From Kineococcus endophyticus (GTDB taxonomy: Bacteria; Actinomycetota; Actinomycetes; Actinomycetales; Kineococcaceae): a stretch of 64,000 nt of DNA. The DNA is taken from contig NZ_JBFNQN010000007.1 of NCBI RefSeq assembly GCF_040796495.1, positions 1 to 64,000 of the forward strand. The letters are read 5' to 3'. Below, piece by piece: positions 27,445 through 31,871 of the stretch (position 1 is the stretch's first letter; each line of letters starts with the position of its first letter). The notes under the pieces were generated by a model that made no database searches, was not told where the DNA came from, and saw nothing but the letters and a program-made list of their open reading frames with translations. The position numbers and the translations under genes were made by a program.

Positions 27445-27469
27445 GACCCCCGGGTGAGTGCCCCGGGTC
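27445..27469. terminator. Bulged hairpin between convergent genes
   Basis: GACCC (27445-27449) pairs with GGGTC (27465-27469) and inner GGG with CCC, with a two-base bulge and a TGAGTG loop. It separates the purH operon from the convergent methionine-transport operon and overlaps its last codon. Confidence 0.4.
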
Positions 27470-28376
27470 AGTCCGCGTCGAGCGGCAGGAGCACGTCCTT
27501 CACGTCCGCGTTCGTCGCGAGGTACTCCTGGACCGCGGGGTCCTGGAACGTCGCGACGAGCGCCTTGATGTTGTCCGAGTCCTTCCACCGCGACCCGATG
27601 GTCAACTGCCCGGCGAACTCGTCGGGGGCGGTCGGGGCGAAGATCTGCTGCTCGATCGGGATCTTCGCCGCCAGGTAGTACTCGGTGTAGCCGACGGCCG
27701 CGTCCAGGTCGGGCAGCGCGCGGGACTGGGCGCCGAAGTCCAGCAGCGTGAAGTTCAGGTTCTTGGGGTTGGTCGCGATGTCGTCGACCGTGGCCTTCCC
27801 GACGTCCGTGCCCGGCTTCAGCGTGATGAGCCCGGCCTTCTGCAGGACGAACAACCCCTGCGACTCGTTGGCGGGGTCGGAGTACAGCGAGACCGTCCCG
27901 CCGTCCGGGATGTCCTGCGGGCTCCTCCACTTCGCCGACCACAGGCCGAAGCCCCAGCGGAACACCGGCGTGGCGGCCTCCTCCCGGAAGTCGGGGTTCG
28001 CCTGCAGGACCTGCCCGAGCCAGAGCTTGTGCTGGTAGATCGTCCCGGCCACCTCGCCGTCGCTGACGGCCCGGTTGATGGTGTTCGAGTCGGCGAGCGC
28101 CTTGAACGCGACCGTGATGCCGTGCTTGGGGGCGACGTCCTTCGCGATGAACTCGATGAGGGCCTCCTCGCGGGCGTTGCCCTCGGCCGTGGCGACGTAC
28201 AGCGTCGCGCCCGCCTGGGTGTTCGCGGTGGCGTCGCCCCCGAGGCGCGGGACGACGATCGCGGCGGCGGCGCCGAGCAGGACCACGGCCCCGCCGGCGA
28301 CGAACGGCCAGCGCCGCCGCTTGCGGATCTCGAAGCCGTGGTCGTCGGTGGTGGGTTCGCGGGTCTCAGTGGACAA
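27468..28376 (-). CDS. metQ: MetQ/NlpA-family methionine-binding protein
   Basis: Substrate-binding component of the D/L-methionine ABC importer, 302 residues. NlpA-family core: VATAEGNAREEALIEFIAKDVAPKHGITVAFKALAD and SLYSDPANESQGLFVLQKAGLI. Unusually there is no lipobox Cys. RKRRRWPFVAGGAVVLLGAAAAIVV (about 17-42) looks like an uncleaved membrane anchor. The only in-frame start is TTG at 28376, with GGAGAAG 7 nt upstream, and it overlaps the metI end by 11 nt. Under the SAM-IV riboswitch upstream of metN. Confidence 0.9.
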   Translation of the reverse strand: MSTETREPTTDDHGFEIRKRRRWPFVAGGAVVLLGAAAAIVVPRLGGDATANTQAGATLYVATAEGNAREEALIEFIAKDVAPKHGITVAFKALADSNTINRAVSDGEVAGTIYQHKLWLGQVLQANPDFREEAATPVFRWGFGLWSAKWRSPQDIPDGGTVSLYSDPANESQGLFVLQKAGLITLKPGTDVGKATVDDIATNPKNLNFTLLDFGAQSRALPDLDAAVGYTEYYLAAKIPIEQQIFAPTAPDEFAGQLTIGSRWKDSDNIKALVATFQDPAVQEYLATNADVKDVLLPLDAD

Positions 28377-29172
28377 GGGTCTTCTCCGGGTTCTGGGTGG
28401 TGTTCTGCGTGGTGTTCTGCGTGGTCTTCTGAGGGGTGTTCCGGGGGAGGGTGCGCGTGGGGGCCGAACGGCGGCGCGTGCGCGGATCGGCCGCGCGGGC
28501 CAGGGCGTCGCCGGTGAGCTGGACGAGGGCGACGAGCGCCACGAGGACGACGATGGTCGCGATCATCACGGCGTGGTCGAAGCGCTGGTACCCGTAGGTG
28601 ACGGCGACGTAGCCGATGCCGCCGGCGCCGATGGTCCCGGCGATCGCGGAGTACTCGATCATCGCGATGGTGTTGATGGTCAGCCCGCCGATGATGGACG
28701 GCGTGGCCTCGGCCAGCTGCACGGTCGTGACGACCTGCAGCGGAGAGGCTCCCGAGGCCTGCGCCACCGTGACGAGGTGCGGCGGCACCGAGCGCAGGGA
28801 GTTCTCGACGATGCGCGCGAAGAACGCCGTGCCGGCCAGGACCATCGGGACGACGGCGGCGCGGATGCCGATGTTCGTGCCGGTGACGAACCGGGTGAAC
28901 GGGACGAGCGCGGCCATCAGCACGAGGAACGGCAGCGACCGGCCGGTGCTGACGACCCAGGACAGGACGGTGTGCGCGGCCCGGTGCTCGAACAGCCCGC
29001 CGGGGGCGAGGTTGTGCACCAGGACGCCGATCGGCACGCCGAGCAGGACGACGATCGTCATGACGATGCCGACCGTGAGCAGCGTGTCGAGGAGCGCCGG
29101 CGCGATGAGCGCGGGGATCTGCGCCAGCGGGGTGTCGAGGTCCGAGGCGGCGGCGACGCTGAGCGGGATCAC
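28366..29172 (-). CDS. metI: Methionine ABC transporter permease MetI
   Basis: Permease of 268 residues with five or more helices; the conserved cytoplasmic loop is EATPSIIGGLTINTIAMIEYSAIAGTIGAGGIG. GTG at 29172 overlaps the metN stop (GTGA). The last 20 residues are a TTQN repeat encoded by 12-bp tandem repeats, outside the membrane domain and unlike normal MetI ends. Confidence 0.93.
   Translation of the reverse strand: MIPLSVAAASDLDTPLAQIPALIAPALLDTLLTVGIVMTIVVLLGVPIGVLVHNLAPGGLFEHRAAHTVLSWVVSTGRSLPFLVLMAALVPFTRFVTGTNIGIRAAVVPMVLAGTAFFARIVENSLRSVPPHLVTVAQASGASPLQVVTTVQLAEATPSIIGGLTINTIAMIEYSAIAGTIGAGGIGYVAVTYGYQRFDHAVMIATIVVLVALVALVQLTGDALARAADPRTRRRSAPTRTLPRNTPQKTTQNTTQNTTQNPEKTLVH
28390..28437. 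repeat. 12-bp tandem repeat, four units, in the metI 3' end
   Basis: Units GTTCTGGGTGGT, GTTCTGCGTGGT twice, then CTTCTGAGGGGT. The array encodes the TTQN repeat at the MetI C-terminus. Confidence 0.8.
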
Positions 29173-30188
29173 ACGAGGTCCAGTTCTCGAGGGGTGGTCG
29201 CCGGGGTGGTCGCCGGGGTCTGCGCGTGCAGGCCGCGGCGGTCGAGGGCGGCGGTGAGGGCGGTGGGGTCGACCATCGCGGGGACGCCGAGGGTGGCGTG
29301 CCCGACGGTGCGTCCGGCGACGGTCCCGACCGACGCCCCGAGCAGGGCGAGGTCGTGGCCGAGTTCGCGCGAGGCCGCGGTGAGCCAGTCGGCCGGGACG
29401 TCGTCGCCGCGGTAGTGGACCTCCCAGACGACCAGACCGCCCGCGTCGCCCACGCCGCGGCGGGGCAGCAGCGCCGCCCCGACCGGGGAGGCCGGGTCGC
29501 GCAGCACGTCGAGCAGGGGTGCGGCCTCGACGATGCGTCCGTGGTCCAGGCGGGCGACGGCGTCGGCCACGTCCACGACGGTGTCCATCTCGTGGGTGAT
29601 GAACAGGATCGCCAGGCCGAGGTCGTCGCGCAGTTCCCGCAGCAGACCCGTGATCGACGCCGTCGCCTGCGGGTCCAGCCCGGACGTCGCCTCGTCGGAC
29701 AGCAGCACGCCGGGGCGCAGGGCGAGGGCGCGGGCGATGCCGACGCGCTGACGCTGCCCACCCGACAGTTCGTGGGGGTAGCGGTCGGCCAGCCCGGCCA
29801 GCCCGACCCGCTCGAGGAGCTCGGCGACGCGCCGCTTCCGGTCCCGGGGGACGACGCCGAGGTAGCGCAGGGGGAGTTCGACGTTCTGCGCGGCCGTGCG
29901 GCGGGTCTGCAGACCGTCGCTCTGGAAGATCGTCCCGATGCGGCGCCGCGCCTCCCGCAGCCGCTCCGCGCCGAGCTGGGTGAGGTCCTGGCCGCCGACG
30001 ACGACCGACCCCGACGTGGGCCGCGTCAGCAGCGTCACGCACTGGGCGAGCGTGCTCTTCCCGGCACCGCTGGGCCCGACGACGGCGGTGATGCTGCCGG
30101 CGGGCACGGTGAGGTCGAGACGGTCGAGGACCGTCGTGGCGTGCGGGGGGTCCCCGTACGTCTTGGTGAGGTGGCGCAGTTCGATCAC
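29169..30188 (-). CDS. metN: Methionine ABC transporter ATPase MetN
   Basis: ATPase of the methionine importer, 339 residues. Walker A GPSGAGKST (38-46), signature LSGGQRQRVGIARAL, Walker B VLLSDEATSGLDP. The C-terminal 90 residues resemble the NIL regulatory domain that senses methionine in MetNI, though it looks diverged. The tail contains an ATTPATTP repeat. GTG at 30188 has AGGAG 6 nt upstream. First gene of metN-metI-metQ, with about 200 nt between it and a SAM-IV riboswitch. Confidence 0.94.
   Translation of the reverse strand: MIELRHLTKTYGDPPHATTVLDRLDLTVPAGSITAVVGPSGAGKSTLAQCVTLLTRPTSGSVVVGGQDLTQLGAERLREARRRIGTIFQSDGLQTRRTAAQNVELPLRYLGVVPRDRKRRVAELLERVGLAGLADRYPHELSGGQRQRVGIARALALRPGVLLSDEATSGLDPQATASITGLLRELRDDLGLAILFITHEMDTVVDVADAVARLDHGRIVEAAPLLDVLRDPASPVGAALLPRRGVGDAGGLVVWEVHYRGDDVPADWLTAASRELGHDLALLGASVGTVAGRTVGHATLGVPAMVDPTALTAALDRRGLHAQTPATTPATTPRELDLV
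29191..29214. repeat. 12-bp tandem repeat, two units, in the metN 3' end
   Basis: Two identical copies of GGGGTGGTCGCC, followed by a partial third. It encodes the ATTP repeat at the MetN C-terminus. Confidence 0.75.
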
Positions 30189-30200
30189 GACGACTCCTGG

Positions 30201-30248
30201 GCAGGGGGTCCAGCAGGGGGTCCAGCAGGGGGTCCAGCAGGGGGTCCG
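30201..30248. repeat. 12-bp tandem repeat, four units, in the metN leader
   Basis: Three identical copies of GCAGGGGGTCCA and one ending in CCG. The array ends 12 nt before the metN start codon, next to its ribosome site, so copy-number change would alter the leader. The stretch 30249-30390 between the array and the SAM-IV aptamer is GC-rich and holds nothing else recognisable. Confidence 0.85.
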
Positions 30249-30390
30249 GCAGTCCGGGCAGGGGGGATCGCGGGCCCGGCGGGTGCGCCGGGTCCGGACG
30301 GGGGGCGAGCAGAGGGGTGCGCTCAGCGGGAGCGGGGACAGGCCTTCGACACGGGAACTCCAAGTTCGTCCTTGCCCGCACCACCTGCGG

Positions 30391-30475
30391 ACCTGGTCCT
30401 CACCCGGAGCACCCCGTGACGAACCAGGGTTGCCGGCCAGCGAGCCGGGGCTTGACGCTGGCGCTCATGACCTGG
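30391..30475 (-). ncRNA. SAM-IV riboswitch controlling metNIQ
   Basis: The minus strand starts AGGTCATGAG, then a P2 stem GCCAGCG...CGCTGGC, internal TCAAGCCCCGG, CCGGCAACC, and the closing GGGGTGCTCCGGGTGA then GGACC, which pairs with the starting GGTC. This order is the SAM-IV consensus, a class found in actinobacteria. It lies just downstream of a promoter reading toward metN. High SAM should reduce methionine import. The mechanism, transcriptional or translational, is not evident. Confidence 0.88.
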
Positions 30476-30479
30476 GGGG

Positions 30480-30509
30480 ACTCTGACAGCCGTCCGAGAT
30501 CGTCGTCAA
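30480..30509 (-). promoter_or_regulatory. Promoter of metNIQ
   Basis: On the minus strand TTGACG (30509-30504), 18 bp, CAGAGT (30485-30480). Transcription would start about 6 nt on, right at the 5' end of the SAM-IV aptamer. Confidence 0.6.
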
Positions 30510-30619
30510 GCGGTTCCGGACGATCGGCGTCCGGAAAGGGTTCTCCGGCATGCGTTGCGCCGCAACGGTCCGAGTCCAGGTTCCGAAAAGCGGCGGCCGC
30601 TCCGGGGTGGGGGAGGAGG

Positions 30620-30625
30620 TACGCT
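30620..30625 (+). promoter_or_regulatory. -10 element (TACGCT) of the sulfone monooxygenase gene
   Basis: TACGCT would start transcription near 30632, at the 5' edge of the SAM-I aptamer. No clear -35 is seen. Confidence 0.45.
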
Positions 30626-30633
30626 GCGGTGGA

Positions 30634-30713
30634 TCCCATCCAGAGCGGCTGAGAGACCTGGCTCGACGACGCCGCAGCAACCCCCCGGGGGTGCTACCGC
30701 CAGGTCCGATGGA
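30634..30713 (+). ncRNA. SAM-I (S-box) riboswitch controlling the sulfone monooxygenase gene
   Basis: P1 CCATC (30636-30640) with GATGG (30708-30712); conserved CAGAGCGGCTGAGAGACC; P2 GCGGC with GCCGC; GCAACC; a C/G stem; GGTGCTACC; then GCCAGGTCC. This is the S-box consensus. The ribosome site GGAGG (30711-30715) of the next gene overlaps the 3' strand of P1. SAM binding should therefore mask it and block translation directly. Confidence 0.9.
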
Positions 30714-30725
30714 GGACGCGCCGCG

Positions 30726-31871
30726 ATGCCCCTGCACGAGCCCCTGAAGTTCGCCTACTGGGTCCCCAACGTCTCCGGTGGCCTCGTCGTCTCGACGATC
30801 GAGCAGCGCACGAGCCACGACCCGGCCTACAACGTCGAGGTCGCCAAGGCCGCCGAGCGCGTGGGGTTCGAGTACGCCCTGACCCAGGTGCGCTACCTCG
30901 CCTCCTACGGCGCCGACGCCCAGCACGAGTCGACCTCGTTCTCCCTGGCCCTGCTCCTGGCGACCGAACGCCTCAAGGTCATCGCCGCCGTCCACCCGTT
31001 CTTCTGGCACCCCGGTGTGCTCGCCAAGTTCGCCGCGACCACGCAGGAACTCACCGACAACCGCCTGGCGCTGAACATCGTGTCCGGCTGGTTCAAGAAC
31101 GAGGCGACACAGCTCGGCGTCACGTGGCACGAGCACGACGACCGCTACAAGCAGTCCGAGGAGTTCATCGAACTGCTGCGCGGGGTGTGGAGCGAGGACG
31201 GCTACAGCCAGTCCGGCGACTTCTTCAACGCCACCGACATCACGTTCCGGCCGCAGCCGAAGGTCGCCCCGGAACTGTTCCAGGGCGGGAACTCCAGCGC
31301 CGCACAGGCCATGGCCGGCCGTGTGAGCGACTGGTACTTCATGAACGGCAAGTCCCTCGCCGGCGCGGCCCAGGGCGTCCGCGAGGTCTCCGCCCTCGCC
31401 GCCCAGAACGGCCGCACCGTCCGCTTCGGCCTCAACGGCTTCGCCCTCGTGCGCGACACGCGCGAGGAGGCCGAGGCCGTGCTCGAGGAGATCATCGCCA
31501 AGGCCGACCGCACCAAGGTCGAGGGCTTCGGCGCCGCCGTCCAGGAGGCGGGGAACTCCACGAAGGACGGCAAGGGCATGTGGGCGGACAGCGAGTTCCG
31601 CGACCTCGTGCAGTACAACGACGGGTTCCGCACCGGCCTCGTCGGCACCCCCGACGAGGTGGCGCGCCGTGTCCTGGCCTACCGGCTCGTGGGCGTCGAC
31701 CTGCTGCTCCTGGGGTTCCTCCACGTCAAGGAGGAGGTCGAGGCGTTCGGCGAGCTCGTCATCCCGCGGGTGCGCGAGCTCGAGGCGCGCCTGGCCGCCG
31801 GGGAGGACCTGCAGCTCGGCGCCGAGCTCGACGAGGCCGTCGTCGCGGCGACGCAGCCCGTCCCGGCCTGA
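30726..31871 (+). CDS. sfnG: SfnG-like FMNH2-dependent dimethylsulfone monooxygenase
   Basis: Luciferase-like flavin monooxygenase of 381 residues, strongly like SfnG: LKFAYWVPNVSGGLVVSTIEQRT, GFEYALTQVRYLASYGADAQHES, HPFFWHPGVLAKFAATTQELTDNRLALNIVSGWFKNEATQLG. SfnG converts dimethylsulfone to methanesulfinate and formaldehyde using FMNH2 from a separate reductase, giving access to organic sulfur. ATG at 30726 follows the S-box, which ties expression to low SAM and hence sulfur or methionine limitation. Divergent from metNIQ. Confidence 0.87.
   Translation: MPLHEPLKFAYWVPNVSGGLVVSTIEQRTSHDPAYNVEVAKAAERVGFEYALTQVRYLASYGADAQHESTSFSLALLLATERLKVIAAVHPFFWHPGVLAKFAATTQELTDNRLALNIVSGWFKNEATQLGVTWHEHDDRYKQSEEFIELLRGVWSEDGYSQSGDFFNATDITFRPQPKVAPELFQGGNSSAAQAMAGRVSDWYFMNGKSLAGAAQGVREVSALAAQNGRTVRFGLNGFALVRDTREEAEAVLEEIIAKADRTKVEGFGAAVQEAGNSTKDGKGMWADSEFRDLVQYNDGFRTGLVGTPDEVARRVLAYRLVGVDLLLLGFLHVKEEVEAFGELVIPRVRELEARLAAGEDLQLGAELDEAVVAATQPVPA

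Follow-up and report, generated by a model that had tools for sequence, protein, structure and literature searches.

A divergent pair of SAM-IV and SAM-I aptamers between metNIQ-like genes and sfnG in Kineococcus endophyticus, and cysteine leader peptides behind SAM aptamers of its family

Described systems and the aptamer pair

Both aptamer classes discussed here, SAM-I (S-box, RF00162) and SAM-IV, are already known, as are their co-occurrence in one genome and the placement of a riboswitch base stem over a translation start. Streptomyces lividans is reported to carry SAM-IV before a cysteine desulfurase gene, with SAM-I in the same genome (PMC8079986, in extract), and extracts of PMC1262725 describe actinobacterial riboswitches with the base stem directly over the translation start, as well as cys leaders of Actinobacteria. 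Cryo-EM of SAM-IV revealed a ligand-binding pocket common with SAM-I, the peripheries of the two being different (PMC6890682, in extract). Two riboswitch classes near each other are known from the tandem SAM-II/SAM-V of Pelagibacter (PMC11508383) and from the metE leader of B. clausii, which combines SAM-I with AdoCbl riboswitches (PMC2258182); going by extracts of these two sources, each pair occupies one leader on one transcript, whereas the pair described here belongs to two diverging transcripts. Within the open-licence literature, we found no printed account of divergent SAM aptamer pairs of mixed class that recur between genomes, of SAM riboswitches that precede genes for organosulfur monooxygenases, such as sfnG, across several genera of Actinobacteria, or of SAM-I stems on the starts of cysteine leader peptides.

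Across the 64 kb of K. endophyticus DNA analysed (the window), cmscan returned only two Rfam matches above the gathering score. Specifically, a SAM-IV aptamer (RF00634) occupies 30363-30472 on the minus strand in the metNIQ leader (91.7 bits against a cut-off of 38, E = 3e-15, model positions 1-116), and a SAM-I aptamer (RF00162) occupies 30633-30715 on the plus strand in the sfnG leader (53.0 bits against a cut-off of 44.4, E = 2.3e-9, model positions 1-108), each being full-length against its own covariance model. A gap of 160 bp separates their outer ends, from which transcription diverges. The original prediction had named both classes, their strands, their genes and a spacing of about 160 bp, and was right in these; the span it gave, 30391-30713, covers the pair but omits the 3' end of SAM-IV. 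An aptamer pair between sfnG and metNIQ occurs at the orthologous position in 5 of 12 family genomes, a count that includes this genome, and the E-values, the orthologous recurrence and the two-sided changes in SAM-IV (below) together place the pair beyond chance.

The region between the aptamers contains promoter-like elements. Upstream of SAM-IV, TTGACG N18 CAGAGT lies at 30480-30509 on the minus strand, and TTGACG and CAnnGT are aligned in 5/5 orthologous intergenic regions, the 18-base spacer being a scripted measurement for the present genome alone. Immediately 5' of SAM-I, a -10-like TACGCT (30620-30625, plus strand) is identical in 4/5 orthologues and has no clear -35 element. A stricter scan of 30150-30800 missed both sites and returned no consensus promoter, and no intrinsic terminator was found in the same interval. 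Between the two promoter-like sites, an inverted repeat CGTTG N5 CAACG (30553-30567), intact in 2/5 orthologues and partial in two others, may be the operator of a DNA-binding regulator. A SECIS_4 match at the same coordinates scored under its cut-off and was put down to chance.

The two arms of the locus

The SAM-I arm leads to sfnG (30726-31871, plus strand, ATG at 30726), an open reading frame called by a self-trained codon model and identified as a dimethylsulfone monooxygenase gene by TIGR04021 (593.9 bits, cut-off 382.95); its identity to sfnG is 89% in Kineococcus vitellinus and 73% in Quadrisphaera. The aptamer resembles described S-box RNAs in scoring above the gathering threshold, in its full length and in its position upstream of a sulfur gene, and differs from them in its dimethylsulfone monooxygenase target and in that no terminator was found. 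The 3' strand of its P1 stem, GATGGAGG (30708-30715, plus strand), holds the sfnG Shine-Dalgarno sequence GGAGG (30711-30715) and is followed by ten bases and then the ATG. The Shine-Dalgarno sequence straddles the end of P1, which pairs just its first two bases.

Among 19 sfnG leader sequences from five genera, the SAM-I core is nearly invariant, the P1 pairs CCATC/GATGG are intact in 18-19 and the pairs of P1, P2 and P3 taken together in 17-19, whereas P4 shows hardly any pairing in the cmscan alignment and is not predicted at all by RNAalifold. Two-sided changes affect 1/21 pairs in this alignment, which comprises 19 of 22 sequences (two of the three omitted are duplicates of other contigs), and covariation says little here because the element is conserved mainly by identity. 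A Shine-Dalgarno-like word at the 3' end of P1 is present in 85/90 SAM-I aptamers of the family versus 2/46 SAM-IV aptamers, and several Arthrobacter and Sinomonas sfnG P1 strands end in GATGGAGA or GATGGTGA. The distance from aptamer to sfnG start is 8-11 nt in 9/9 family leaders; outside these, the start lies at most 16 nt past the aptamer in 8/13 other named leaders and no sfnG-frame start falls within that distance in the remaining 5/13, which slightly weakens the explanation that we favour.

That explanation, which we regard as likely, is that two SAM-off riboswitches govern both arms of a sulfur-scavenging locus and that the pair results from inherited classes. We infer that both RNAs bind SAM and that binding turns both arms off. 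At the sfnG end, SAM should block translation because P1 overlaps the Shine-Dalgarno sequence: with SAM high, P1 would close over it, and with SAM low, both aptamers of the locus would open. Release of the Shine-Dalgarno sequence was not seen when nine sfnG leaders were folded as ViennaRNA ensembles in which P1 was left free, forced or forbidden, the sequence being mostly paired in every P1 state (mean unpaired probability 0.20-0.45) with no consistent difference between states.

SAM-I scoring above its cut-off lies upstream of sfnG in 13 of the best 80 of 588 sfnG loci from named genomes, distributed over Kineococcus (2), Quadrisphaera (1), an Actinomycetales metagenome-assembled genome (1), Specibacter (1), Arthrobacter (6) and Sinomonas (2); SAM-IV was found upstream of sfnG in 0/80 of the same best loci within the stretch examined. 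The named set overlaps the family set, three Kineococcus records (L047-L049) being contigs of genomes G010, G002 and G007. Two Arthrobacter agilis records place a c-di-AMP riboswitch divergent to the sfnG SAM-I aptamer (L118:1746-1920, L119:1951-2133 (-)).

The opposite arm comprises, all on the minus strand, genes for a metN-like ABC ATPase (29169-30188; TIGR02314 241 bits, cut-off 499.7; NIL domain 20.7, cut-off 24), a metI-like permease (28366-29172; NF008049 166 bits, cut-off 212) and a metQ-like lipoprotein (27468-28376; PF03180 134.6 bits, cut-off 27; TIGR00363 86.2, under its cut-off). Because the NCBIfam matches fall under their cut-offs, we can only infer the substrate of this transporter. 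The aptamer itself fits SAM-IV in score and covarying pairs: two-sided changes affect 14/31 predicted pairs, including those between the P3 loop and the 3' tail, in a set of 20 sequences picked from 52, with an RNAalifold fold that departs from the published helices (its outermost helix joins columns 1-3/43-45, not the Rfam P1). A pseudoknot pairs 30418-30423 (TTCGTC) with 30365-30370 (GACGAA) on the minus strand (span 30365-30423, columns 51-56/111-116), and, depending on the pair, between 0 and 7 of the 20 sequences show two-sided changes; by our own assignment, made against an extract of PMC6890682, it corresponds to PK-2.

This SAM-IV aptamer differs from described ones in the cysteine mini-ORF that directly follows it in the metNIQ leader. 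The nine-codon frame VSKACPRSR (30323-30352, minus strand, GTG start) has its Cys codon TGT at 30338-30340, and before the GTG lies the Shine-Dalgarno-like GGAG (30358-30361, minus strand), three bases beyond the pseudoknot strand at 30365-30370. Orthologous loci encode VTKACRRSR, VSKDCRRSR, VPKACRRSR and, in genome G009, VSHQTCRR. Their stops precede the metN start, as called, by 87-134 nt of poorly conserved sequence. A 12-bp repeat array of 4.3 copies (30201-30252) in this interval was not seen in four aligned orthologues. Most SAM-IV leaders of the family lack a mini-ORF of this kind by the same test.

The frame could have arisen by chance, with SAM-IV affecting metN in some other way. It is just nine codons long and known from five genomes, the G009 peptide deviates, and metN has its own Shine-Dalgarno sequence about 125 nt beyond the mini-ORF stop. 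We nevertheless consider a chance frame rather unlikely, as the GTG, the Shine-Dalgarno-like word, the open frame and a single Cys codon, always TGT, are kept at 5/5 orthologous loci, TGT making up 4/260 Cys codons in the scored genes of this genome. In addition, a metNIQ leader peptide ending in CMCRRMCAF is reported for S. lividans, no riboswitch being mentioned there in the extract of PMC8079986 at hand. In the explanation that we favour, high SAM would stabilise the 3' pseudoknot of SAM-IV beside the start signal and shut the metNIQ leader.

Recurrence of close pairs and class per target gene

The genome contains 10 SAM-I and 5 SAM-IV aptamers above the cut-off and, on contig C9, a second divergent mixed pair in which SAM-I before metF-metE and SAM-IV before a SufS-like aminotransferase gene are 161 bp apart. 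Random placement would give this genome about 0.01 mixed pairs closer than 600 bp (10 x 5 x 1200 / 5.04 Mb), an expectation that overstates the surprise because sulfur genes cluster. In a survey of 104 genomes (12 of the family and 92 others of the order), the 344 aptamer matches listed include 23 neighbouring pairs closer than 600 bp, all of them divergent, 21 mixed and 2 of the same class, with four SAM-I members under the cut-off (G037 30.1, G053 36.9, G081 38.1 and G002 42.1 bits). We set aside the uniform divergence (23/23) as a signal; it is near trivial, since leaders sit at 5' ends.

The mixed pairs fall into few gene contexts, whose names are best matches, several of them under curated cut-offs: metFE opposite a sufS-like gene in six genomes of Kineococcus; a small rhodanese-like gene with metZ opposite a sufS-like gene in five genomes that belong to a different family, with G002 as a probable further case, its gene behind SAM-IV running off the contig end; sfnG opposite metNIQ in five genomes; an SBP5 importer opposite a luciferase-like monooxygenase or importer in two; and, in one genome each, an FAD oxidase opposite a flavokinase and an ssu-like gene opposite a luciferase-like monooxygenase. 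The term rhodanese is our own reading of the sequence, for which NCBIfam returned no match at 1e-15. Same-class pairs comprise a divergent IV/IV pair in G006, between an SfnB-like and an MFS gene (L037:3538-3947, contig C31), whose aptamers are identical at 95/111 bases with identity dropping at the aptamer borders, and an I/I pair in G078 that places a metN-like gene opposite another gene.

Aptamer class follows the target gene. In the 12 family genomes, 101 assigned aptamers form 18 target groups (three with a single member), none of which is mixed, where assignment required at least 50% identity to a target of this genome and placed 101/136 aptamers, leaving 35 unassigned. The rule weakens under 50% identity because importers 42-44% like SBP5_c8, a SAM-I target, carry SAM-IV in G004, G006 and G010; an importer 50% like SBP5_c9 is likewise under SAM-IV in G005. 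The sfnG gene holds SAM-I with or without an adjacent SAM-IV-metNIQ arm, in nine genomes of which five are paired and four are not (counting G002, whose sfnG SAM-I scores 43.0, under the cut-off). In a tree of sfnG, the five genomes with the pair group together as a single clade with a support of 0.987. Mixed pairs are most simply read, on these genomic patterns, as operons each bringing its own switch, the pair then being kept; for sfnG and metNIQ, operons with their own inherited class would have become divergent neighbours a single time, in an ancestor common to the five paired genomes.

Two opposing readings assign a function to the mixture itself. The two classes could set different SAM thresholds, so that the transporter genes and the monooxygenase gene respond to unequal SAM concentrations; conservation of class per gene would be expected if class matters, and the classes combine a common pocket with different peripheries (PMC6890682, in extract). 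Plain inheritance accounts for the per-gene conservation equally well, however, and luciferase-like monooxygenases, SfnB-like genes and ABC importers all occur under either class, which leaves distinct thresholds improbable. Selection for unlike classes, on the grounds that two divergent aptamers of one class would amount to an inverted repeat, liable to exchange or deletion, and that unlike pairs would therefore mostly be the ones to persist, is less probable still: 21/23 close pairs are mixed, but by gene context this excess shrinks to about 6 mixed versus 2 same-class, a near even split, the G006 and G078 pairs of like aptamers exist, and class tracks the gene whether or not it is part of a pair.

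The original prediction, which had raised avoidance of homologous exchange and different SAM set-points as possibilities, was partly supported, being right in its observation and half right in its interpretation. Its description of the classes as structurally unrelated does not hold, both belonging to Rfam clan CL00012 with a common SAM-binding pocket (PMC6890682, in extract), and the pairing it called unusual is so only in part, given the second pair in the same genome and the 21 mixed pairs among 104 genomes. Inheritance of one class per operon remains the reading that we prefer.

Cysteine leader peptides behind SAM aptamers

In many relatives, unlike at sfnG, the start codon behind the SAM-I P1 stem is that of a leader peptide. 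A near start codon (3-16 nt) is by itself common by chance, and it is the open reading frame behind it that counts. Among the 90 SAM-I aptamers of the family (two of them cut off by the end of the sequence examined), 38 have a gene start, defined by at least 60 codons with a coding score, 3-15 nt past the aptamer. Ten others, all before metF, lead into a short ORF, 18-22 codons long, that has a 4-nt overlap with the metF start, a layout pointing to translational coupling that recurs in 10/10 genomes with a metF SAM-I aptamer (for example, L017:11287-11440). Finally, 40/90 precede a short ORF with an HVDL-like motif (x[VIL]D[LFH]), followed soon after by Cys in 38, two of which need a CTG start; L017:17012-17206 exemplifies a P1 stem lying on the start of such a leader, and the consensus of these leaders is LTRRRHVDLCRTASAACR.

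The motif occurs in 38/52 far leaders versus 0/2600 shuffled sequences and 0/52 reversed upstream stretches, and in 4/46 SAM-IV leaders over a wider search span. In 32/38 HVDL leaders with Cys, the final Cys is encoded by the rare codon TGT. Past the motif, Cys codons number 35 TGT and 30 TGC, compared with 4 TGT and 256 TGC in genes of this genome (Fisher p = 1e-24); the corresponding trinucleotides upstream of the aptamers number 291 and 923 (p = 2e-7 against the leaders) and those in the other leader frames 16 and 63. Both p-values make the evidence look stronger than it is, as the leaders are related to one another and were drawn from 12 genomes and the comparison genes come from one.

These peptides resemble the cysteine leader-peptide attenuators of NF042934 (cis_reg_atten), a profile that was compared with ten leaders, eight of them following SAM-I and two following SAM-IV, and that matches 9/10 of these, with 4/10 passing its 27-bit cut-off, two for each class; the SAM-I-linked ones differ in having their start signal within the P1 stem. 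In this genome, 4/6 best NF042934 matches (E < 0.1) lie immediately behind SAM-I aptamers: of five SAM-I leaders compared, those at C9:235141 and C8:161847 score above the cut-off, those at C1:59527 and C5:298630 below it, and the one behind C9:225737 gives no match. Across 14 other genomes taken as a control, no match exceeded the cut-off, 10 of them having sub-cut-off matches with E up to 10. Searching for HVDL leaders with a degenerate DNA pattern gave 0 hits in the genome and 1 for the reversed control; the pattern was too strict and missed known leaders, and we rely on the profile search instead. The metNIQ mini-ORF, at nine residues shorter than the 20-residue minimum of NF042934 and without the HVDL motif, is for these reasons not counted as a member. 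Separately, two sub-cut-off leader-peptide matches in this genome (G000), C1:29543-29596 (-) and C1:17555-17605 (+), of 22.2 and 26.2 bits, have no adjacent Rfam SAM match listed and may conceal diverged aptamers.

Beyond the family, we sampled 69 SAM-I sites of the order (a random 60 of 75, together with nine pair-locus sites). A near start is present at 40/69 by a looser test based on length only, an HVDL-type leader with Cys at 11/69 (10 genomes, four further families) and a coupled short ORF at 8/69. The remaining 10/69 are of none of these types, and a short Cys-containing ORF is present at 8 of the 10. Among ten of these order-level HVDL leaders, nine have TGT as the final Cys codon.

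We tentatively suggest, as a proposition that falls a little short of even, that SAM riboswitches of the family often gate, in place of the gene itself, the start of a cysteine leader peptide, such that a SAM aptamer and a cysteine attenuator in series would form an AND gate. With SAM high, the leader peptide could not start; with cysteine plentiful, the ribosome would pass the last UGU codon; and with both short, it would stall at UGU and the sulfur-scavenging operon would be expressed. The window would then hold two versions of this logic: a direct one in the SAM-I/sfnG arm and a minimal gate in the SAM-IV/metNIQ arm, where SAM-IV would gate the start of the mini-ORF and its Cys codon may supply the second signal.

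The proposed coupling in series of a SAM aptamer with a cysteine leader is the part most worth testing. If true, it would assign a function to short ORFs labelled 'putative leader peptide', and SAM-I on a cysteine leader would constitute a two-metabolite, RNA-plus-ribosome gate for sulfur starvation that joins the two ends of sulfur amino-acid metabolism.
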